Below the pieces are notes generated by a model that saw only the letters and a program-made list of their open reading frames with translations, did not search any database and had not been told where the DNA came from. The position numbers were made by a program, and so were the translations under genes. 22,042 nucleotides of DNA from a virus: positions 1-22,042 of the IMG/VR virus record IMGVR_UViG_3300028388_004604. The stretch is one strand, 5' to 3'. Positions 2,333-19,165 of the stretch are shown here, in pieces (within the stretch, counting starts at the first letter, position 1; the number at the start of each line of letters is the position of its first letter).

Positions 2333-2746
2333 TTACTCCTGTTTATTTCTCTTTAAACTTCCTGATTTTTTACGAAGTTTCATTTCTTTATCTGTAGTGT
2401 TTTTATGACACTTTTTACAAAGTACCGTTAACTCTTCTGGACCGCACCATAATCTATTTATATACTCATCCCAACCTTGCCAACCTTGCTCTGCGTCAAC
2501 TACTTCTATGTCATGATCAAGTTCTGGTTTTTGCATTATTATATCTGGATAAACTTCTTTTAAATTATTAAAACTTTTTTCACTCTTCCCATCATACATT
2601 ATTTGAGCACACTTTTCACACTTAAAAGTGGCTTTGTCAATTTTAGCTCTATTTTTAGCTTTTGTATATTCAGGACGTTGTATACTTAGTCTTCTAAGAT
2701 GTTTTTTTATTTTAGCTACTTGAACGTATGATTTTTTTTTGCTCAT
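2333..2746 (-). CDS. HNH-type endonuclease
   Basis: A 137-residue protein with a basic N-terminus (SKKKSYVQVAKIKKHLRR) and an HNH (beta-beta-alpha metal) nuclease pattern: CEKC at 43-46, PELDHD at 75-79 with the catalytic His 78, the central Asn in YINRLW (N97), and CKKCH at 110-114. The two CxxC pairs would hold a structural zinc. Free-standing HNH proteins of this size are common in phages, as DNA-nicking enzymes in packaging or replication or as homing-type nucleases. It directly follows the stop of the DEDDh exonuclease gene, so the two probably share an mRNA. Which role it has cannot be decided from sequence. Confidence 0.85.
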   Translation of the reverse strand: MSKKKSYVQVAKIKKHLRRLSIQRPEYTKAKNRAKIDKATFKCEKCAQIMYDGKSEKSFNNLKEVYPDIIMQKPELDHDIEVVDAEQGWQGWDEYINRLWCGPEELTVLCKKCHKNTTDKEMKLRKKSGSLKRNKQE

Positions 2747-3325
2747 TTAAGACTCTTTCATTTTGTTATACAAAAAATGATGAAATCTAGCTGTGTTTAA
2801 TGCGTCAATAACGGCATTATGTTTTCCAACACCTTGCCAGGTTAAGCCACATCTTCTCATACTTTTTGATAAACCACCGCTTACGTTTAATCCATTTGCT
2901 TCTGCATATGTTTGATATAAATGCTTTATATTCATTCCAGAGTAACCAAACTCCCATTTAACGTCAGGAAGTTGTTTTTTAAGAGCATCCATGTCTCCTC
3001 CTCCCCACTGTTTAATAACCCTAGAAAAGTTATATTTTTTTTGAAGATCTACCAATTTGTTATAAGATTTTTCTAAAGTTGTTCCAGATTTTATATCATC
3101 GTCAGATATTTTTGTTAAGTTTTTTATAAACTCAGAAAGCTTAACACCAATATTAATAAACTCACTTACCTCTTCCAATACTTTAAAATCAGGCTCTATT
3201 TCGTATATAACATACCCTACTTGGATTATCATCTCTTTATTTAACTGAGAATCAGGAGTTTGGTGATTTGTATAGGGCTGTTCTAGCTCTAGGTCTATGC
3301 AACAGTGTATTTTGTTAGTATTCAT
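2747..3325 (-). CDS. DEDDh 3'-5' exonuclease (DnaQ/RNase T-like)
   Basis: A 192-residue exonuclease of the DnaQ superfamily with all motifs in order: Exo I as DLE (D11, E13), the MIIQVGYVI strand, LTKISDDDI, Exo II Asp in WGGGDMDALKKQL (D111), and Exo III GKHNAVIDALNTAR with general-base His (H169) and Asp (D174). HxAxxDAxxTA marks the DEDDh rather than the DEDDy subclass. It has no polymerase domain, so it would trim DNA or RNA 3' ends on its own. GGAGG upstream and an ATGA overlap with the previous gene support ATG 3325. Confidence 0.9.
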   Translation of the reverse strand: MNTNKIHCCIDLELEQPYTNHQTPDSQLNKEMIIQVGYVIYEIEPDFKVLEEVSEFINIGVKLSEFIKNLTKISDDDIKSGTTLEKSYNKLVDLQKKYNFSRVIKQWGGGDMDALKKQLPDVKWEFGYSGMNIKHLYQTYAEANGLNVSGGLSKSMRRCGLTWQGVGKHNAVIDALNTARFHHFLYNKMKES

Positions 3326-3567
3326 TCTAAATCCTCCATGTTTATTCCATGTGATTCTAATATAGAATAAAACTGCTCTCTAATAGACTCTACAGTTGAT
3401 AAAACAATATTAGGATCTTCTTCTGTCTGTAGTTCATATTTAACCATTTGTCTAAGTCTGTTGTCAATATCATGTAAACACAAGTATGCTTCTGTAGCAG
3501 AAACGCATCTTTTATGTGCTTTTCTCTCACTTGGATCGTCTAGATCAAATTCTAATTTAGCTTTCAT
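3322..3567 (-). CDS. hypothetical acidic helical protein, 81 aa
   Basis: An 81-residue, mostly helical acidic protein beginning MKAKLEFDLDD. I prefer ATG 3567 over ATG 3585, because AAGGA lies 4 bases before the inner ATG while the outer one has no Shine-Dalgarno. The C-terminus reads ILESHGINMEDLE and overlaps the exonuclease start (ATGA). There is no metal or nucleotide motif. Function unknown. Confidence 0.75.
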   Translation of the reverse strand: MKAKLEFDLDDPSERKAHKRCVSATEAYLCLHDIDNRLRQMVKYELQTEEDPNIVLSTVESIREQFYSILESHGINMEDLE

Positions 3568-3574
3568 AATGTCC

Positions 3575-3751
3575 TTAATCGTCATGTTCAGTTAATTCTA
3601 GATGAGATAAAATCTCTATCCCGACTAACTCTCCATCTTTATCATAATCTAAGTATATATCATCACTTAATTCTTTAGTTTTTAAAACCTTTTTATTATC
3701 TTTAACATAAATGTAACTTGCATGTTTACTAGTCGTTGCTTTCATTTTCAT
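3575..3751 (-). CDS. small hypothetical protein, ~58 aa
   Basis: A short charged protein (MKMKATTSKHASYIYVKDNK, then an acidic half ending TEHDD). It looks like a small beta-rich domain. The start is uncertain: TTG 3763, ATG 3751 and ATG 3745 are all in frame, none has a strong Shine-Dalgarno, and I chose 3751. It overlaps the upstream gene by 23 bases, so reinitiation is likely. Function unknown. Confidence 0.5.
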   Translation of the reverse strand: MKMKATTSKHASYIYVKDNKKVLKTKELSDDIYLDYDKDGELVGIEILSHLELTEHDD

Positions 3752-3941
3752 CGTCCCATTCAAACATCATAGTATATCCTCTAACTAATCCTTTTTTTAA
3801 AGTAACAGTATCTAAGGATTTAGGAGGTAACATTCCTAAGTCTTCAAATATTTCTAAAGTTCTCTCTACTATAGCTTTACTAACAAACACAGTATTTTTT
3901 TCGTGCTTTAATACTTTTTCTATAAATTCACTTCTTTTCAT
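3729..3941 (-). CDS. small hypothetical protein, 70 aa
   Basis: A 70-residue protein starting at ATG 3941, overlapping the previous gene by 14 bases in another frame. The N-terminal half is helical (KRSEFIEKVLKHEKN, AIVERTLEIFEDLG). The tail is acidic (FEWDDENESND). The helical half could be a small DNA- or protein-binding domain, but no specific family is recognised. The Shine-Dalgarno is weak, consistent with translational coupling. Confidence 0.65.
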   Translation of the reverse strand: MKRSEFIEKVLKHEKNTVFVSKAIVERTLEIFEDLGMLPPKSLDTVTLKKGLVRGYTMMFEWDDENESND

Positions 3942-4245
3942 AATCTAACTTAAATTCATCATAGTTTTTAAAAACTTTAATAATATCTTTATTTTTGTCT
4001 TCTTCATCAAATATAAAAGACATTACAGAAGTAGCACCGTAAGCTTCTTTGTGGCATTTATAAACCGATCCACTAAATCCTTTAAACAAGTAATAATCTC
4101 CGTCTTCTTCTATGTCTACAATTCCACTATTTAGTCTCCAACTATCGCCATCTAGATAGCCTCCTCTCCATCCTCCTAATACTTTGTAAGTGGTTTTATC
4201 ACCATCTCTAAATCTAATTATTAACCATTTATCAGGACAATGCAC
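3928..4245 (-). CDS. hypothetical protein, 105 aa, GTG start
   Basis: A 105-residue protein starting at GTG 4245 with AGGAG exactly 5 bases upstream, a clear non-ATG start. The sequence is rich in Trp, Gly and aromatic residues (GGWRGGYLDGDSWRLNSGI, then DGDYYLFKGFSGSVYKCHK), suggesting a compact all-beta fold. The last 30 residues are charged and helical. No enzymatic motif is seen. Confidence 0.75.
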   Translation of the reverse strand: MHCPDKWLIIRFRDGDKTTYKVLGGWRGGYLDGDSWRLNSGIVDIEEDGDYYLFKGFSGSVYKCHKEAYGATSVMSFIFDEEDKNKDIIKVFKNYDEFKLDYEKK

Positions 4246-4254
4246 AATATCTCC

Positions 4255-4785
4255 TTAATCCCAAAACCTATCTATATACTCTGACATCAGCTTATCATAT
4301 CTTTTTTTCCTACTTTTTGCAATTTTTAGGTCTTTTCTATAAGCTTTTCTAAATGCTTCTTTGTTTTTTATACCTTCTTCTAATAAATTAAAACGTCCAT
4401 ATTTTTCGTAATACAGGTTTATATAATAACTATCGTTAAAATCATTTTCTACTTTTCTTTTACACAACTCTTCTAGCTCGTATAGTTTTTTTATAAGTCC
4501 TTTTTTTCTACCACTATTCCACATAAGATGAGTTTTACCAGAGTCCATAAACTTTCTTACTCTTTTTACATGAGCATATATTAGATTATCTAAGCTGTTA
4601 GCATCAAAATCAAAAGTTTTAGTTCCTGCTTTTCCATAGTATATAAATTTATCTAAGTAATTATATAATTTTTTTGGTAAATTAATTAAATTATAAATAG
4701 GATGAAATATATCACTATAGTAAATTCCTTTTACCAATCCATACTCTTTTACGCAGTCTAATAAGTCTTCAAATAAATCTTTCAT
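4255..4785 (-). CDS. hypothetical basic protein, 176 aa
   Basis: A 176-residue protein rich in Lys and Tyr with no signal peptide. It starts at ATG 4785 (TAGGT upstream) just after the cytochrome c gene. It carries many Tyr and Phe residues in the first half and long basic helices in the second (KAYRKDLKIAKSRKKRYDKL), a composition compatible with nucleic-acid binding. Although downstream of the cytochrome, it has no haem, Cys-pair or export feature tying it to respiration. Function unknown. Confidence 0.75.
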   Translation of the reverse strand: MKDLFEDLLDCVKEYGLVKGIYYSDIFHPIYNLINLPKKLYNYLDKFIYYGKAGTKTFDFDANSLDNLIYAHVKRVRKFMDSGKTHLMWNSGRKKGLIKKLYELEELCKRKVENDFNDSYYINLYYEKYGRFNLLEEGIKNKEAFRKAYRKDLKIAKSRKKRYDKLMSEYIDRFWD

Positions 4786-4791
4786 AAATAC

Positions 4792-5175
4792 CTATTTTAA
4801 AGTAGTTATTTTACCTTTAGGTTTCTTTTTTAAAGAATCAATGTAATTTAACACTTCTTTAAGTTCTTCTTTTTCTATTTCTTGTTCTGGCATTATAGTT
4901 GGTTTATATAGCTCGTATATTTTTTTAGCAACAGGATCTGCTTTTTCATACCCTTCTTCTTCCTCGTCACCAAATATCATACCTTCTGGATAGTTTATAA
5001 ACTTTACTAACCAGTCAATTTCTCTTCTTTTAGAAACTTCAGCCAAATCAGGACCAATTTTATCTCCTTCTCCGATACTATGACAAGCAGAGCAGTTTTG
5101 TTTAAAATAACTTTCTCCGTCAATTCCAAAACAACTAAAAGAAATAGTTAATAAAAAAAATATCAAAGTTTTCAT
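4792..5175 (-). CDS. exported c-type cytochrome (class I)
   Basis: A 127-residue monohaem cytochrome c. The signal peptide is MKTLIFFLLTISFSCFG. The haem-attachment motif CSACH is at 28-32, followed by the class I signature SIGEGDKIGPDL and RREIDWLVKFI. The distal haem ligand is probably M95 in PTIMPEQ, with a final helix KEELKEVLNYIDSL. The frame stays open upstream to 5223, but GAGGAT just before ATG 5175 and the signal peptide starting there fix this start. The product would be exported by Sec and given haem in the periplasm by the host maturation system, acting as an electron carrier. An acidic insert (GDEEEEGYEKAD, 69-80) is unusual. It may support or divert host respiration during infection, which is inference. 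Confidence 0.9.
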   Translation of the reverse strand: MKTLIFFLLTISFSCFGIDGESYFKQNCSACHSIGEGDKIGPDLAEVSKRREIDWLVKFINYPEGMIFGDEEEEGYEKADPVAKKIYELYKPTIMPEQEIEKEELKEVLNYIDSLKKKPKGKITTLK

Positions 5176-5182
5176 AATATCC

Positions 5183-5287
5183 TCAATTGTTGTCGTTTTC
5201 TTCATCTGATTCAAACATTCCACATTTTTTGTAAAACAGAATCAAAGTAGTAAATCCTATTAGTATTAAAAATATATCAACTAAAAT
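5183..5287 (-). CDS. 34-aa membrane peptide, putative ATT start
   Basis: An open frame of 34 codons between the stop of the 60-aa secreted protein and the cytochrome gene. There is no ATG, GTG or TTG before the hydrophobic segment, but ATT 5287 lies 5 bases after AAGGAG, the same spacing seen at several confident starts here. The product would have one membrane span (DIFLILIGFTTLILFY) and a short acidic tail with one Cys (KKCGMFESDEENDNN). The frame is also in phase with the upstream gene across its TAA, so readthrough would append it to that protein. Alternatives are a start at an inner TTG/ATG or non-coding sequence. Confidence 0.45.
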   Translation of the reverse strand: MLVDIFLILIGFTTLILFYKKCGMFESDEENDNN

Positions 5288-5296
5288 AAAAACTCC

Positions 5297-5479
5297 TTAG
5301 TCTCCACATATTGCATTATATACTCTTTTTTCTTTTTTTACAAATTTTTTTAAACAAGATTTATATTGTTTTTTACAAACGTAACTCGCTCTTTTTTTAG
5401 ATTTTATATCTGAATTGTTCCAAGGTTCTGAAGAAAGATTTATCATTAATGTTGCAGCACATATTGCTAACATATACAT
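5297..5479 (-). CDS. small Cys-containing secreted or anchored protein, 60 aa
   Basis: A 60-residue protein with a short hydrophobic N-terminus (MYMLAICAATLMINL) resembling a signal peptide or anchor. A strongly basic domain follows, with three Cys (35, 42, 58; Cx6C then a terminal CGD). If exported, the Cys could form a disulfide. It starts at ATG 5479 (AAAGGG upstream; ATG 5473 also possible). It is the first of three consecutive envelope-directed genes ending in the cytochrome. The family is not recognised. Confidence 0.65.
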   Translation of the reverse strand: MYMLAICAATLMINLSSEPWNNSDIKSKKRASYVCKKQYKSCLKKFVKKEKRVYNAICGD

Positions 5480-5480
5480 A

Positions 5481-5828
5481 CTATTTCCCTTTGTTTACAG
5501 TCCTATAGGTGCAGCTTGTACAAGTTAAAACTTCCCCTACTTTTGGAACTTTAGTTTTATTTACAAAAGACAAACAGACTGGACACCTCGGCTCTACTTC
5601 TTTCACTTCTTTTAAACTTTTATCTGATTTAGCAGCTTCTATCAAATCTTCTAAACTTATTTCATCTAAATTATCTCTTAAAAATCTATTAGTTTTTTTA
5701 AAAGCCTGTTCATATGAATTTAATTCGCTTTTTAGTCTATTGTTTTCTTTTTCTAATTTATATATTCTTTTTTTAAGTTTGTTAAGTTCAGAATCTTTGT
5801 AGCCCTTTTTAGGCTCTTTTCTTTTCAC
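5481..5828 (-). CDS. coiled-coil protein with C-terminal zinc ribbon, 115 aa
   Basis: The start is GTG 5828 with AAGGA upstream, immediately after the MazZ-like gene. Residues ~14-45 form a charged coiled coil (LKKRIYKLEKENNRLK). A helical linker follows, then a four-Cys zinc ribbon (CPVC 82-85, CTSC 103-106). The arrangement suggests an oligomer that binds nucleic acid or protein through the ribbon. No enzymatic motif is present. Confidence 0.8.
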   Translation of the reverse strand: MKRKEPKKGYKDSELNKLKKRIYKLEKENNRLKSELNSYEQAFKKTNRFLRDNLDEISLEDLIEAAKSDKSLKEVKEVEPRCPVCLSFVNKTKVPKVGEVLTCTSCTYRTVNKGK

Positions 5829-5832
5829 TAAA

Positions 5833-6552
5833 CTAGTCCTTTTTTAATCTAACTCTATCGTCAATTCCTTTATCACAGCTTTCATAAGTTAATAAAAACA
5901 TTATGTTAGCTGCAGCTAGTTTTAAGTGATGTAGTCCGCTTTCTTCATCTATATCTACTCCCATCTTCCACTGTGCAATATGCCTTTCTAAAGATCCTAG
6001 AACTTTACTGTAATTTAAACCTTCTCCACATAAGTAGTTTGGAGTTTCTCCAGCTTTTTCAGAATATTTATTTGCACCATAGGCTAAGGCTTCTCCAAGA
6101 CCTAAAGTAAACTCTGGTCTAATAAGATCAAGTCTTGGCTTACCTTGGTCAAACTTTAATGGGCTATCTTTTTTAGTTTCTTTTTTTTCACTAACAATAC
6201 CTACCGCTAACTCTATCTCTTCCCTAGTTCTAGAAAGCTCTAAGTATCTGCTTTTAACTGGAACTTTGGCTGGTTTTGTGTCCCAAAAGTCTACTAACAC
6301 TGTCTTATCATCTAAGACTTCTATTACTCTACCCAACTTGTTTTCAACAAGACCGTTTACTGTTTTCATTCTTTTTGTAAGTTTTTTTAATTTTACTTCG
6401 TATTTAAACTGAAAAGGATTAGTGTCTTTAACTTCTTGAGTAACTTCTTCTTTAGGTAGTTCTTTTTCTAATTCTCCAAATATAGAAGCAGAACTAATTT
6501 CAGACATGCCAGCTTGAGATTCTAACTCTTTAGATTCGTTTATTTTATTCAT
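5833..6552 (-). CDS. MazZ-like dATP/dGTP pyrophosphohydrolase domain protein
   Basis: A 239-residue protein. ATG 6552 is chosen because AGGGGA lies just upstream; the open frame extends nine codons further. Residues 133-221 match the phage all-alpha NTP pyrophosphatase family (DUF5664 / dATP-dGTP diphosphohydrolase, MazZ-type): KFDQGKPRLDL, ALAYGANKYS, LGSLERHIAQW and HHLKLAAANIMFLL. The conserved Glu/Asp and His residues would bind Mg and cleave dNTPs to dNMPs. Residues ~70-105 look like a small SH3/KOW-type beta domain (GRVIEVLDDKTVLVDFW), and the N-terminus is acidic and probably disordered. MazZ works with PurZ in 2-aminoadenine phages, but no PurZ is in this window. It may instead only adjust dNTP pools. 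Confidence 0.8.
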   Translation of the reverse strand: MNKINESKELESQAGMSEISSASIFGELEKELPKEEVTQEVKDTNPFQFKYEVKLKKLTKRMKTVNGLVENKLGRVIEVLDDKTVLVDFWDTKPAKVPVKSRYLELSRTREEIELAVGIVSEKKETKKDSPLKFDQGKPRLDLIRPEFTLGLGEALAYGANKYSEKAGETPNYLCGEGLNYSKVLGSLERHIAQWKMGVDIDEESGLHHLKLAAANIMFLLTYESCDKGIDDRVRLKKD

Positions 6553-6562
6553 AAATCCCCTT

Positions 6563-7534
6563 TTAGTTGGAGCTATCACACTTTATTATACGGTTTACTG
6601 CTTTTTTAGTCAAATCATTAGTTTGAGCTAGATTAAAACGTATAAGAAATCTTCCAATTTCTTCATCTAAAGGTACGTATGTTATGTTTGCTTTTTCTAC
6701 TATGTCTTTTGCTTTTTTATCAGCCCATACACAATAGAACATTCCATCTCTTGAAACAGGAGTGTTATTAAATAAATAAGATATTCTATTCATTTCATTT
6801 CTATTATTATTTATAAGCTCTTTAGCATCTTTTGAAAAATAATACCAGTTTATAGTTTTCATTAAATCCAATACATATAGCTGACTAATAGCAGAAATTG
6901 TACAATTTTCATATAAACTATCGTAACAATATTTTTTAAAATCCTTTTCATTATTAGTAGCTATCCATCCTACTCTAGCTCCAGTTAGTCCTAAAAATTT
7001 ACTATAAGATCCACAATTAACAGTGTGATTTGGTGCTACATTATAAGAGTTTAGATAAACGTCATTATGATATACGCTGTCCCAAACTATGTCATTTGCT
7101 TCATAAGTACTAAATTTTCCAGAAGGATTAGAAGGACTATCTAATAAAACTAAGTTTTCTTTTTTGTTAAGTATGATATTACAAGTAGTTTCTAGTTTGT
7201 TAATTTGATTAAGGTTGTTTTTATATATGATGTCTGGGTAGTACGGAAAAAAATGCTCATTAGTATAGCAGTTTTCTTTCCCCTTTTTTTTCATATTCCT
7301 AAGAACAATATTTAAAGCATTAGTAGTTCCGTTAGTTATAGTAACGTATTTATAATCTATTCCTGTAGATTCTTTAAGGAACTTTTTTGTTATTTTTATC
7401 AAATCTTCATTACCATTGTCTGAAGAGTATGATAAATCTTTTATATTTATTTTAAAGTTTTTCCTGTAATGTTTTTCTAGAACTTCTCTAACGCAAAAAG
7501 GCTCTCCCCAACCTAAGTCGATTTTACTCATCAT
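6563..7534 (-). CDS. PLP-dependent class I/II aminotransferase
   Basis: A 323-residue fold-type I aminotransferase with a full active site: TNGTTNA (67-73), NPSG (136-139), Asp and Tyr in WDSVYHN (D152 binds the PLP ring nitrogen, Y155), the Schiff-base Lys in GSYSKFLGLTGARVGW (K179, with R187 for the phosphate), and the carboxylate-binding Arg in RFLIRFNLA (R299). The order and spacing resemble aspatate/histidinol-phosphate-type enzymes, but it is shorter than the usual 350-400 residues, mainly at the N-terminus. It has no signal peptide, so it is cytoplasmic. ATG 7534 overlaps the stop of the gene before it. The substrate cannot be read from sequence: amino-acid supply and nucleotide hypermodification are both possible. 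Confidence 0.88.
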   Translation of the reverse strand: MMSKIDLGWGEPFCVREVLEKHYRKNFKINIKDLSYSSDNGNEDLIKITKKFLKESTGIDYKYVTITNGTTNALNIVLRNMKKKGKENCYTNEHFFPYYPDIIYKNNLNQINKLETTCNIILNKKENLVLLDSPSNPSGKFSTYEANDIVWDSVYHNDVYLNSYNVAPNHTVNCGSYSKFLGLTGARVGWIATNNEKDFKKYCYDSLYENCTISAISQLYVLDLMKTINWYYFSKDAKELINNNRNEMNRISYLFNNTPVSRDGMFYCVWADKKAKDIVEKANITYVPLDEEIGRFLIRFNLAQTNDLTKKAVNRIIKCDSSN

Positions 7535-7820
7535 CTTCTTCTTTTTCTAAAAATTGCTCAAATACTTCGTCCACTGAGTAAACAGCTAGTGTTTGTAGCA
7601 GTTCATTTTTAGTAACTTTTTTAACTACTTTCTTAGCAACAGTTTTTGCTAGTATATCAGACTTGTCTACTGACTGGTTTTGAAAATTTCTAATAAACAT
7701 TTTTTCTAATTCTTCATTGTACTTTTCAGTAAGTTTTTCTAACTCAATTCTACCATCTCTTGAAAGAGGTACGTTTTTAGTTAATGTTTTAGTTTCTTGT
7801 CCAGTAATTACACACTTCAC
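7524..7820 (-). CDS. hypothetical protein, 98 aa, GTG start
   Basis: The start GTG 7820 has AGGAG 7 bases upstream and overlaps the protease stop as GTGA. The protein begins MKCVITGQETKTLTKNVPLSRDG, reminiscent of a degenerate zinc-ribbon knuckle with a single Cys. Long charged helices (IELEKLTEKYNEELEKMF, KTVAKKVVKKVTK) and an acidic tail follow. It is sandwiched between the ClpP-like and aminotransferase genes with overlaps on both sides. Function unknown. Confidence 0.7.
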   Translation of the reverse strand: MKCVITGQETKTLTKNVPLSRDGRIELEKLTEKYNEELEKMFIRNFQNQSVDKSDILAKTVAKKVVKKVTKNELLQTLAVYSVDEVFEQFLEKEEDDE

Positions 7821-8386
7821 TGTATTTCTCCTATGTGATCAATAAGTCCAAATTCAAAAGCTTCTTTAGCTGTTAAGTAAGTATCATATTCTAATAAGTA
7901 TTTTAATTGCTTTCTAGTAAAACGTGGCTTTTTTCCTTTTATTTTACTTAGATATATGTCTTCCATCCATTTTTCATCTTTTCTATGTTCTTCCATAGCT
8001 CTATCAGCATTTCTAGGCAAGCTTTGAGGTATGTACTCTTGTCCAGTATGTACCATTATTTTACTGTTAGGAGTCATTACTCTTTTATCAGCAGCCTGTA
8101 GTATTATAGTAGCAGAAGAAGATACTTCTCCATAGCATATAACTCTTACTACGTTTTTACAGCCTCTTATTAAGTCATAAATACCTCTAGCAACGCTTAC
8201 GCTTCCTCCATCACTCATTATCTTTATAGTGATTTCTCCATTTTTAGAATCTAAAGCATGAATGTTTTTAGCTAACATTTCAAACATATTCTCGTCTACA
8301 TCTCCTACTACCACTATAGTTTTTGTGTCTAAAAATACATTATTACTATGAAACTCGCTAATTAAGTCTTTGAAGCTGGTTGTCAT
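7817..8386 (-). CDS. cytoplasmic ClpP-like serine protease
   Basis: A 189-residue ClpP-family peptidase without a signal peptide. SDGGSVSVARGIYDLI (58-73) is the oxyanion region. The nucleophile lies in YGEVSSSATIILQA, S90 by alignment to ClpP AASMG. The His is H113 in NSKIMVHTG and the Asp is D168 in EYDTYLTAKEAFEFGLID. The S-to-H spacing of 23 is close to ClpP. The length matches mature ClpP (~190-200), so a ring-forming peptidase is plausible. It could recruit host ClpX/ClpA or act independently. ClpP-fold enzymes also serve as capsid-maturation proteases, but this one lies among DNA-metabolism genes. It is clearly different from the secreted protease at 730-1491. Confidence 0.9.
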   Translation of the reverse strand: MTTSFKDLISEFHSNNVFLDTKTIVVVGDVDENMFEMLAKNIHALDSKNGEITIKIMSDGGSVSVARGIYDLIRGCKNVVRVICYGEVSSSATIILQAADKRVMTPNSKIMVHTGQEYIPQSLPRNADRAMEEHRKDEKWMEDIYLSKIKGKKPRFTRKQLKYLLEYDTYLTAKEAFEFGLIDHIGEIQ

Positions 8387-8387
8387 A

Positions 8388-9344
8388 TTACCCTCTTCTG
8401 TTAGTGTTTCTTAGTTTTTTCTCCGCTTTTATTGATTTAGTATCTCTATACTCTTTACCACAATCCCCACATTTGTATTTTTGGTACTTGGTAGAGTTTG
8501 TATAATATATTCCATTTTTCTTAATATTTGTAGATCCGCAACTGCAGCGATCATCTTCAAAGTATATTGTAAAGTTTATAGTATCGTCCCAAGGGAGCAT
8601 GACTTCGTATAATTCTTCTAAAGAAAGTACATCATATTCGTTATATACTTTCATTTCTTCCCAAGCTTCTAAGTTTCCTCTTTGGCATTGTGTCCAAAGT
8701 TCTTGTCCTGGGAATTTACCGTGGCTTAGTTTTTTATACTTAGTACATAGTTTATCTGTTAAATAAGCCAACTTATTTGAAGTAAATCCAAAGTGCTTTT
8801 TAGCTACTAACTTGGTATCAATGTTTCTAAAACTACTAGGAGGTTGCATACCGTTTAAAATAAACCTAGCGTTTAGTTTTTTTATATCAAAAGCTTTACC
8901 ATTGTGAGTAACTACGATATCTGCTTTATCTAATAACTTCCATAAAGGTTTTAGTATTTTCTTGTCATTTTCTATATTCTTTGCATTTCTTTGATCTTCA
9001 TACATAACTTCATCTTCTCTATACCATTTAGCAGACCAACTCATTACATGCCAGTCTTTTTTAACCTGATTAAGCCCTAAGTTATTATTCCAAAGAGTCC
9101 ATACGTTTCCTAGTATTGGACTAGTTTCTATATCTAGTATTAAAATATTTGGAGCATTTTCTTTATTTTTAATTTGTAAAGAGGGGTATTTGTACCTTTC
9201 GTAAGCTTTTCTAATACTGTTAGAAGTGGTTTTAACTTTATATTTAGAGTTTATAATTTTAGATATTTCTTTATAAGTATTAGATTCATATAAATCTAAA
9301 ATATCTTTTATCATACTTTCAGTCCACTTTATTTTGTTTCTCAT
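8388..9344 (-). CDS. RNase H-fold 3'-5' exonuclease with N-terminal helical domain and zinc ribbon
   Basis: A 318-residue, three-part protein. Residues 1-55 form a helical domain resembling a Myb/HTH DNA-binding unit (WTESMIKDILDLYESNTYKE). Residues ~65-250 carry a DEDDy-type exonuclease: LDIETSP (D71, E73), THNGKAFDIKKLNARF (D153) and YNEYDVLSLEEL (D238). Residues ~265-300 form a zinc ribbon (CSC at 267-269, CGDC at 292-295), followed by a basic tail. The centre resembles the YprB/RNase_H_2 group, and the ends suggest sequence- or structure-guided DNA loading. ATG 9344 with AGGAG 5 bases upstream is better than the in-frame TTG 9347. It is separate from the polymerase, which has its own exonuclease domain. 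Confidence 0.85.
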   Translation of the reverse strand: MRNKIKWTESMIKDILDLYESNTYKEISKIINSKYKVKTTSNSIRKAYERYKYPSLQIKNKENAPNILILDIETSPILGNVWTLWNNNLGLNQVKKDWHVMSWSAKWYREDEVMYEDQRNAKNIENDKKILKPLWKLLDKADIVVTHNGKAFDIKKLNARFILNGMQPPSSFRNIDTKLVAKKHFGFTSNKLAYLTDKLCTKYKKLSHGKFPGQELWTQCQRGNLEAWEEMKVYNEYDVLSLEELYEVMLPWDDTINFTIYFEDDRCSCGSTNIKKNGIYYTNSTKYQKYKCGDCGKEYRDTKSIKAEKKLRNTNRRG

Positions 9345-9840: not shown

Positions 9841-10050
9841 CTAATCCAATTTTCTTTTTACTAATAATAGTTCTTTTTTTACTCTAGTAATTTCTTTTTT
9901 ATAATTATTACTTTCTATTTTATAATCATCTAATTGAAGTTGTAAAAGTTTAATACTTTCTTCAAGTTGTGTTTTTTTATTTTTTAACTTTTTATTTAAC
10001 ATAATATAATAAGTTCCTAATAACATTAATAATACATTTAAAAATATCAT
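9841..10050 (-). CDS. membrane-anchored coiled-coil protein, 69 aa
   Basis: One N-terminal membrane helix (IFLNVLLMLLGTYYIML, ~2-18) is followed by a continuous charged coiled coil of ~45 residues. The plan of anchor plus coiled coil resembles phage inner-membrane spanins, although the coil orientation cannot be proven. The start ATG 10050 overlaps the stop of the preceding signal-peptide gene (ATGA). Lysis or membrane scaffolding are both possible. Confidence 0.65.
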   Translation of the reverse strand: MIFLNVLLMLLGTYYIMLNKKLKNKKTQLEESIKLLQLQLDDYKIESNNYKKEITRVKKELLLVKRKLD

Positions 10051-10391
10051 TTAGAAATCTCTTGTTGTATTTTAAAAGCGTAGCTAGTAATTACTACTCC
10101 TAGCAAAAAATATCCTACATTATATATATTATTTTTGAATTTTTCAGAAGATAGACGCTTTCTTTGTAAACTAGCGTCTTCTTTATAGTATTTTATTAAA
10201 GAGTCTTTGTGTAAACTAAGATCTTTTAGTAGTAAGTTAGATTTTTCTGCTTTTACAGCTTTTTCAGCTCTTTCTTTAGTTAACAACACTCCACTAAAGG
10301 GGGCAGGTGAGTCTTTTTCTATTAATACTGCATCTTGTGCATTACTTGTTGTTGAAATGATCAACAATATCATTATCAGAAAGTTTTTCAT
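10047..10391 (-). CDS. envelope protein with signal peptide and C-terminal membrane helix
   Basis: A 114-residue protein. Residues 1-18 are a signal peptide with a good cleavage site (MKNFLIMILLIISTTSNA / QDA). A PAPFSGVLLTKERAEKA motif at ~29-45 is a pattern I associate with small phage membrane or lysis proteins. A charged helical region follows, then a C-terminal membrane span (VGYFLLGVVITSYAF, ~92-106), which would leave the middle in the periplasm. The first 50 bases overlap the end of the 57-codon gene upstream. A spanin-like or other lysis role is inferred and untested. Confidence 0.7.
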   Translation of the reverse strand: MKNFLIMILLIISTTSNAQDAVLIEKDSPAPFSGVLLTKERAEKAVKAEKSNLLLKDLSLHKDSLIKYYKEDASLQRKRLSSEKFKNNIYNVGYFLLGVVITSYAFKIQQEISK

Positions 10392-16515: not shown

Positions 16516-16710
16516 TTAATCTCCAAAAACCTCTTTTACATATTTTTTTTCATATTTTTTAAATAATATAGGAGTCTTTGTACTTATATTAAAAGACTTT
16601 AATAACGATAGTACTTTTTTACTAGAGCTGGTAGTATCAAAACTTAATGTTGCTTTAGGTTTAGAAGAACAAGAAGCTGTAATTAATATTATGACTAGGA
16701 ATTTAAACAA
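16516..16710 (-). CDS. small lipoprotein, 64 aa, TTG start
   Basis: The protein begins MFKFLVIILITASCSSKPKA, a type II signal peptide whose TASC lipobox marks C14 as the lipidated residue. The mature part is ~50 residues, basic, with a Ser-rich linker and a helix ending KKYVKEVFGD. The start TTG 16710 has GGAGG 7-8 bases upstream. A phage-encoded lipoprotein could be an outer-membrane spanin subunit or a surface-exclusion factor. The 8-base overlap with the membrane peptide gene before it makes the pair interesting. Confidence 0.7.
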   Translation of the reverse strand: MFKFLVIILITASCSSKPKATLSFDTTSSSKKVLSLLKSFNISTKTPILFKKYEKKYVKEVFGD

Positions 16711-18145: not shown

Positions 18146-19165
18146 TTAGTCTTCTGCTTTATCTCCACTAAATATTTCTTTAATTTCAATTTCTTTTCCA
18201 TCCTTACCCATTACTTTTTTTGTAAGATCATAAGAAAAAGCTTTATTCCTTTCTTCTGCAGATTTCATTTCAAGGAGAGTATTATAGTATAGTTTAAATA
18301 TAGTATATTCTTCTGTAGTCATTTTTCTTAACATTCTAAGCTCTCTATCATAAGCTAGTAATTTATTCTGACCACGTTTAACTTTATCGTTTTTATGAGC
18401 TTCTCTAATTTTTGCATACCCCCATCCAAGGATGCTGATTCCAGCATCTTCTTCTAGTCTGAGTATTGGTCTATGGATTTGAATAATGTTATTAGCAATG
18501 TATTTAAACTGACTACACGCTAAAACAGAATCTGCATCTAAAGGTATTTCCCCTTTACCTCCAGAAGACTTATTAACTTGTGCCATAGCTATTCCTAAAG
18601 CATCTAAATTAACAGCCATTTCTTTTACCATAACCATTATAGAGTTTAGCGTACTTGGGTCATTTTCTCCAATTACGTGTAAATGATCAATTGCAAAACA
18701 ACTTACATCCCCAATAGCATCTTTATAAACATTTAACTGCTCTTTAATCCATCTCATGCTAATAGATTCTCTTGATTTACCTTCTTCATCATATCTAGAT
18801 AAAATAAACAATCTTTCAGCAAGGTCTTCATCGTCACCAGTCATATCAAACCATCTCTTAGCAATTTCTTGATCAGTCATTTCAAGAGATACGTAAACAG
18901 CACAACTGTTTTTATTCGATATTAAAATGTCTTTCATTAGTTGAAGAACTACTTCTGACTTACCGACACCACTATCGCCTAGTACTCCAAGAACTTCTTT
19001 ACGACTCCATTTATGTACTAAGCAATCAAACTCTGGAGTGGAGTTTACAAACAAAGAAGGGTCACTACCTCTTTTTACCCTACCACTTCTTCTTAATTCT
19101 CCTAAAGATCTTATTCCAGCTTGCTCTCTTCTTTTTTGTGCAAAATTCACTAAGCCTCCTTTCAT
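18146..19165 (-). CDS. DnaB/RecA-fold replicative helicase ATPase
   Basis: A 339-residue single-core RecA-fold ATPase. Walker A is GDSGVGKS (63-70). The DnaB-type catalytic Glu lies in VSLEMTDQE (E95). Walker B is CFAIDHLHV (D160). The motif H3 Gln lies in AMAQVNKSSGG (Q196). A basic segment (AKIREAHKNDKVKRGQNK) is a candidate DNA-contact region. The N-terminus is basic and short, without the DnaB N-terminal collar, as in phage helicases that use separate loaders. Two in-frame starts each have a Shine-Dalgarno: ATG 19165 (AAAAGGAG) and GTG 19150 (AAAGGAGG, inside the first codons). The second would give 334 residues. Confidence 0.9.
   Translation of the reverse strand: MKGGLVNFAQKRREQAGIRSLGELRRSGRVKRGSDPSLFVNSTPEFDCLVHKWSRKEVLGVLGDSGVGKSEVVLQLMKDILISNKNSCAVYVSLEMTDQEIAKRWFDMTGDDEDLAERLFILSRYDEEGKSRESISMRWIKEQLNVYKDAIGDVSCFAIDHLHVIGENDPSTLNSIMVMVKEMAVNLDALGIAMAQVNKSSGGKGEIPLDADSVLACSQFKYIANNIIQIHRPILRLEEDAGISILGWGYAKIREAHKNDKVKRGQNKLLAYDRELRMLRKMTTEEYTIFKLYYNTLLEMKSAEERNKAFSYDLTKKVMGKDGKEIEIKEIFSGDKAED

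Follow-up and report, generated by a model that had tools for sequence, protein, structure and literature searches.

An exported-type cytochrome c gene in a phage cassette, with relatives in Bdellovibrionota oxidase operons

Why would a phage with an otherwise ordinary set of replication genes carry a respiratory electron carrier? The question is raised by a stretch of viral DNA of 22,042 nucleotides, analyzed at its full length and referred to here as the window, for which an earlier note had proposed an exported monohaem cytochrome c within a phage replication region. The setting is as that note described it: this 22-kb virus record contains genes for DNA polymerase A (polA), a DnaB-like helicase, primase, Sak recombinase, and ClpP-like proteins.

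The cytochrome gene and its predicted product

The window protein matches the Pfam family Cytochrom_C (PF00034) with an E value of 4.4e-10 and 41.2 bits, which exceeds the curated cutoff of 21.3. It has a single CxxCH haem-attachment site (C28-S-A-C31-H32), which is N-terminal and invariant among relatives; in an alignment of 51 relatives, C28, C31, H32, and M95 are all invariant. M95, the C-terminal methionine, aligns with the second methionine of the MMTDM motif in the Rhodothermus marinus cytochrome c structure 3cp5 and is the candidate sixth iron ligand. By inspection, a lysine followed by a hydrophobic stretch and then FG/FA can be seen at the N-terminus in both phages described below and in the bacterial orthologs. 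The motifs named in the earlier note, including a signal region, the haem site, GPDL, M95, and an acidic stretch (G69-DEEEEGYEKA-D80), are all present (Table 1).

Structure prediction, which the note had suggested as a check, gave an AlphaFold2 model of the protein without haem with a pLDDT of 87.9. VIA-align placed this model closest to 3cp5 (Z 9.5 over 87 residues) and to the cytochrome domain of 2l4d (Z 9.4), with other cytochromes at 6.2 and below. Foldseek also matched 3cp5, with a probability of 1.00 and an E value of only 3.8e-03. The model and its structural alignment thus display the all-helical class I fold. Taken together, the open reading frame, the Pfam match, the predicted fold, and the counterpart in a second phage identify the gene, at the level of sequence, as encoding an exported-type monohaem class I cytochrome c. 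The protein had no match among PHROGs. It is a 127-amino-acid single domain and lacks the fused Sco domain seen in Sco-cytochrome c fusions.

We favor the ATG at 5175 over an upstream GTG at 5223, which would give a protein of 143 amino acids, because a GAGG-containing putative ribosome-binding site precedes the ATG and because this start agrees with those of the orthologs. Each of the two phages has a putative ribosome-binding site ahead of its cytochrome gene; the counterpart in the second phage reads AAAGGAGCTATT. Scans for promoters and terminators returned matches at chance level.

Table 1. Cytochrome c gene, its residue features, and the genes around it (positions in the window; G001 and G003 are related phages)
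Feature	Position	Strand	Evidence or comparison
HNH endonuclease-like protein, downstream-side cassette neighbor	2333..2746	(-)	phrog_3106, 4.6e-05; synteny
DnaQ-like exonuclease, cassette partner	2747..3325	(-)	90% identical in G001; absent from G003; phrog_192, 1.2e-07
87-aa protein, cassette partner	3322..3585	(-)	78% identical in G001; absent from G003
105-aa protein, cassette partner	3928..4245	(-)	81% identical in G001; absent from G003; no PHROG match
176-aa protein, cassette partner in both phages	4255..4785	(-)	80% identical in G001; absent from G003; no PHROG match; among viral contigs, only in G001
Cytochrome c gene (127 aa, stop included)	4792..5175	(-)	ORF, translation, Pfam, alignments, model
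Signal region; CSACH haem site; GPDL	residues 1-18; 28-32; 41-44
Acidic insert; axial Met95 (predicted); C-terminal helix; tail PKGKITTLK	residues 69-80; 95; 102-114; C-terminus
GAGG-containing putative ribosome-binding site TTGAGGATATT ahead of the cytochrome ATG	5176..5190	(-)	sequence
60-aa protein next to the cytochrome gene	5297..5479	(-)	G001 homolog elsewhere (18241-18441); no Pfam match
Upstream-side cassette neighbor	5481..5828	(-)	directly abuts the HNH gene in G001 and G003

A second phage and a shifted five-gene cassette

A scan of viral contigs for the cytochrome returned a single relative, 74% identical, on the 74.4-kb contig G001, and further scans using the phage pair, a broad alignment, or a bacterial-plus-phage alignment as queries returned only G001. 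No relative of the phage cytochrome was detected among 50,697 phage records; a bacterial ortholog used as the query against phage records had no match even at an E value of 1, and a fold search of BFVD gave no convincing match. G001 carries terminase, portal, and major head protein genes and a polA 91% identical to that of the window, whose genes mostly have G001 counterparts in the same order. When the ends of G001 are joined, an uninterrupted 114-amino-acid gene, the counterpart of window positions 10047-10391, spans the junction, and the joined sequence aligns with the window across it at 76%, which makes it very probable that the G001 genome is complete and circularly permuted. The third phage of the group, G003 (78.8 kb, polA 78%), shares most replication genes and lacks the cytochrome gene, which is thus not essential to this group of phages.

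The earlier note had raised the concern that the contig could be an assembly chimera of bacterial and phage DNA. This explanation is excluded by the different location of the gene in the second phage, and we assign it next to no probability. The independently assembled G001 carries the gene among phage neighbors in a complete-looking genome, with a protein identity of 74% that shows it is not a copy, and no oxidase gene lies beside the cytochrome gene in either phage. By these sequence comparisons, the cytochrome c gene genuinely belongs to the phage.

In the window, the genes for the 176-, 105-, and 87-amino-acid proteins and the DnaQ-like exonuclease come after the cytochrome gene, and the genes that flank this group have counterparts that abut each other in G001 and G003. 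In G001, the same five genes are bordered by primase and by a metallopeptidase-like gene; there the cytochrome gene occupies the opposite end, adjoining the DnaQ-like exonuclease gene, and the arrangement amounts to a circular permutation. Between the window and G001, the cassette DNA is 86% identical in the partner genes and 81% identical over most of the cytochrome gene. The cassette (window 2747-5175; G001 6818-8885) is thus shifted and permuted between phages that are otherwise largely collinear, and it is absent from G003. Judged by gene order, the five genes are a mobile unit.

Several other features were observed in these genomes. At the edge of the same cassette in G001, a rhodanese-like open reading frame (L002:7998-8315; PF00581, 9.3e-13) that is absent from the window overlaps the end of the primase gene. 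A 64-amino-acid open reading frame with a lipoprotein-type leader (window 16516-16710) matches part of the 158-amino-acid metallopeptidase-like lipoprotein of G001 (6307-6783), relative to which it is apparently shortened. The window encodes two different ClpP-like proteases (730-1491 and 7817-8386), the first of which has a hydrophobic, signal-like start and is conserved in all three phages. A PLP-dependent aminotransferase-like protein (window 6563-7534) is also present in G001 and absent from G003, and the tail-side region of G001 (L019:2530-3012) encodes a weakly thioredoxin-like protein (E 0.0095).

Bacterial relatives, surface charge, and probable host

A first genome scan with two query sequences found no match. 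The best genome match overall was on a 399-kb contig of an uncultured Oligoflexia bacterium (Bdellovibrionota), with 65% identity over residues 3-127. Among 129 genomes of one Bdellovibrionota class, nine contain close orthologs (about 50-69% identity), and in all nine the ortholog is the first gene of a cytc-ctaA-sco-coxB-coxA-coxC-coxD-ctaB operon; for coxC in two of them (G039 and G042), there is no open reading frame in the table and a gap of coxC size is present. In the operon of G014, Pfam identified CtaA, SCO1-SenC, CoxB with a cytochrome c domain, CoxA, CoxC, subunit IV, and a UbiA-type CtaB. Additional cytochrome copies occur in G033, which has two more, and in G036, where a second copy directly follows the cbb3 oxidase genes: a fused ccoNO, ccoP, and a ccoG-like ferredoxin gene. 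The fusion itself (L131:3824-5998) joins the cbb3 subunits CcoN and CcoO in 724 amino acids (COX1 plus FixO).

The phylogeny that had been suggested as a way to find the donor leads to this oxidase-linked cytochrome c clade of Bdellovibrionota. In a maximum-likelihood tree, the phage pair forms one clade (99/97) within a bacterial clade (95/94), nearest to the protein of G032 (86/87). The simplest reading of these sequences is one capture from the bacterial lineage that predated the split of the two phages.

The earlier note had also set the acidic insert apart from the compact family pattern, as a possible determinant of partner choice. The idea that the insert is special to this protein did not hold. 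In an alignment of 14 sequences, the insert, located between a helix and the Met loop, and the GKI tail are common to phage and bacterial orthologs. Because the bacterial orthologs have GDEEEEGYEKAD almost letter for letter, and only more distant families lack it, the insert is taken to be an inheritance from the bacteria and no phage novelty. What differs is the surface charge outside the insert: the core pI is 4.83 and 5.09 in the phages (net charge -7 and -5), compared with 8.47 in G032 and 8.46 in G014 (net charge +2). Both phages have glutamates E46 and E107 where none of 12 bacterial sequences has an acidic residue, and E36 and E104 come close to this pattern. With only two phage sequences, these differences are suggestive of a phage-specific change in charge. 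We speculate that the phage retuned a host respiratory carrier by reversing its surface charge, such that it docks differently and, during infection, sends electrons to another oxidase or acceptor or acts as a brake on the oxidase; we consider this unlikely. If true, a charge-retuned carrier would represent viral control of the respiratory chain at the soluble carrier.

A Shine-Dalgarno site lies ahead of 64% of the genes in the window and 74% of those in G001, compared with 33% of genes in Bdellovibrionota loci and 3% in Bacteroidota loci. Although the nearest cultured polA, that of a Flavobacterium phage (46%), would suggest a Bacteroidota host, this difference makes such a host unlikely. 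Codon usage is nondiscriminating, with correlations above 0.9 for Flavobacteriales loci as well as for Bdellovibrionota loci. No prophage or close phage relative was found in the 129 genomes of the class: a portal search gave a single weak match, and a polA search, run without a positive control, gave none at its thresholds. Mainly from the origin of the cytochrome gene, we infer that the host belongs to the Bdellovibrionota. The finding thereby points to phages of this phylum, which includes predatory bacteria and whose viruses are little known.

Possible roles of the phage cytochrome and known systems

The mature part of the protein is 82% identical between the two phages, with a pS of 0.60, a pN of 0.097, and a ratio of 0.16, compared with pN/pS values of 0.13 and 0.18 for the core genes polA and primase, respectively. 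The signal part has a pN/pS of 0.96, yet its hydrophobicity is kept. These values indicate that the mature cytochrome is under purifying selection and that the gene has been kept as protein coding over considerable divergence. The gene is thus a host-type metabolic gene in a real phage genome that is kept by selection, as expected of an auxiliary gene.

We consider it fairly probable that the gene is an auxiliary metabolic gene encoding a phage copy of the small periplasmic cytochrome c that heads the caa3-type oxidase operon of some Bdellovibrionota, which would act as a carrier between quinol oxidation and a terminal oxidase. Of the roles proposed in the earlier note, keeping host electron transport running has the best support, since it is in oxidase operons that the bacterial orthologs are encoded. 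The Sec machinery of the host would export the protein, its cytochrome c assembly system would attach one haem to C28 and C31, and His32 and Met95 would bind the iron. The phage carrier could then pass electrons from alternative complex III to a terminal oxidase (caa3, or perhaps cbb3), such that oxygen respiration and proton-motive force would persist while host gene expression is shut down. The use of such bacteria as the host, haem binding, feeding of the oxidase by the carrier, and a benefit to the phage are what we infer under this reading.

The partner machinery was sought in the nine ortholog-bearing genomes. Eight contain a cytochrome c assembly protein and eight contain NrfD-family proteins, and bc1-type cytochrome b is absent from all nine. 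The act-type gene set of G032 includes ActB-, ActC-, ActD-, and monohaem ActE-like genes, named from their sequences and order. We considered whether the phage cytochrome itself could be the ActE subunit of alternative complex III and rejected this identity: neither the phages nor the bacterial oxidase operons showed an act gene nearby, and G032 has a separate ActE-like gene that adjoins its act genes. In Rhodothermus, soluble cytochrome c is reduced by alternative complex III, which is also able to pass electrons straight to caa3 (PMC5928083). Given this direct transfer and the cytochrome c domain within CoxB itself, the soluble carrier may not be limiting, which counts against the carrier role.

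Three other explanations were weighed against the carrier role. The strong charge shift could mean a changed partner, and the phage protein might accordingly be a diverter or decoy that binds the oxidase or the reductant and slows or reroutes electrons, for example to another acceptor such as a peroxidase, or away from caa3. The phage core pI values of 4.8 and 5.1, against about 8.5 in the two closest bacterial relatives, and the glutamates at positions 46 and 107, which have no acidic counterpart in the 12 bacterial sequences, together with the nearly phage-specific E36 and E104, would fit such a function, as would the pI of cyanophage plastocyanin, which also differs from the host form (PMC10452541). 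However, the haem ligands and conserved core are kept under purifying selection, and some bacterial copies are acidic too: those of G036 have a pI of 5.1-5.2, and one of them lies in a caa3 operon. We regard this explanation as quite unlikely. Alternatively, the protein could help in assembly, donating electrons to a Sco protein for construction of the copper-A site of CoxB rather than serving as a carrier. The orthologs share an operon with ctaA and sco, and 2l4d, one of the two closest folds, comes from a protein that joins Sco to cytochrome c, but the other closest fold, 3cp5, is a free cytochrome c, and the paralog that follows the cbb3 oxidase operon has no adjoining sco. The cbb3 oxidase is an enzyme without copper-A. 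An assembly function is, in our judgment, improbable.

Finally, the gene might be a useless passenger, captured by chance with the mobile cassette. Its presence in only two phages, between which the five-gene cassette has moved, and its absence from G003 are compatible with this. The selection test disfavors it: the mature protein has been conserved despite extensive synonymous divergence, and the freely changed signal part is still hydrophobic, with ribosome sites retained. Chance carriage therefore seems very improbable, and support of electron transport remains the role that we prefer.

Comparison with known systems places the phage protein nearest to the cytochrome c of the Bdellovibrionota caa3 operons (L025/G014, G032, and seven others), with which it shares about 50-69% full-length identity, the acidic insert, the C-terminal GKI tail, and the haem ligands. 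Unlike them, it stands by itself in a phage cassette that has no oxidase genes, and its core pI is lower by about 3.5 units than in the nearest relatives. The R. marinus cytochrome c shares the class I fold and the aligned methionine, and its source also uses alternative complex III and caa3; however, it is only about 31% identical, has no acidic insert, and is cellular. The cytochrome domain of Pseudomonas putida PP3183 (2l4d) shares the fold and a KDP.A...Y...MP pattern but is fused to a Sco domain and is without the insert.

Respiratory electron-transfer functions have been reported in viral sequences: ccoP and cydAB appear in a review (PMC12713726), soxD has been described, with two examples lacking haem motifs (PMC8190135), and reads of cbb3 subunit I have been found (PMC3474794). 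These are enzyme subunits, several of them from reads or unvalidated, whereas the phage cytochrome is a free carrier with a predicted intact haem site in two phage genomes. Neither the 50,697 phage records nor PHROGs, BFVD, and the open-access literature searched yielded a phage soluble cytochrome c taken from an oxidase operon. New here is a phage auxiliary gene whose cargo is a respiratory soluble cytochrome c.

Cyanophage genes that sustain photosynthetic electron flow are well known. Among them, plastocyanin (petE) occurs in 70 of 153 cyanophage genomes; it is a proposed electron donor to cytochrome c oxidase, and its pI is not that of the host protein (PMC10452541). Like plastocyanin, the phage cytochrome is, as far as its sequence tells, a phage-carried, exported-type one-electron carrier of host origin with a shifted pI; plastocyanin is a copper protein of photosynthesis, whereas the phage cytochrome is a predicted haem protein of aerobic respiration. 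The occurrence of a host oxidase-linked cytochrome c in two related phages suggests that respiration is supported or redirected during infection, and this small, testable protein makes it possible to ask whether phages intervene at the carrier step to manage the energy supply of hosts that respire. It would then be the aerobic-respiration equivalent of the cyanophage genes for photosynthetic electron flow.
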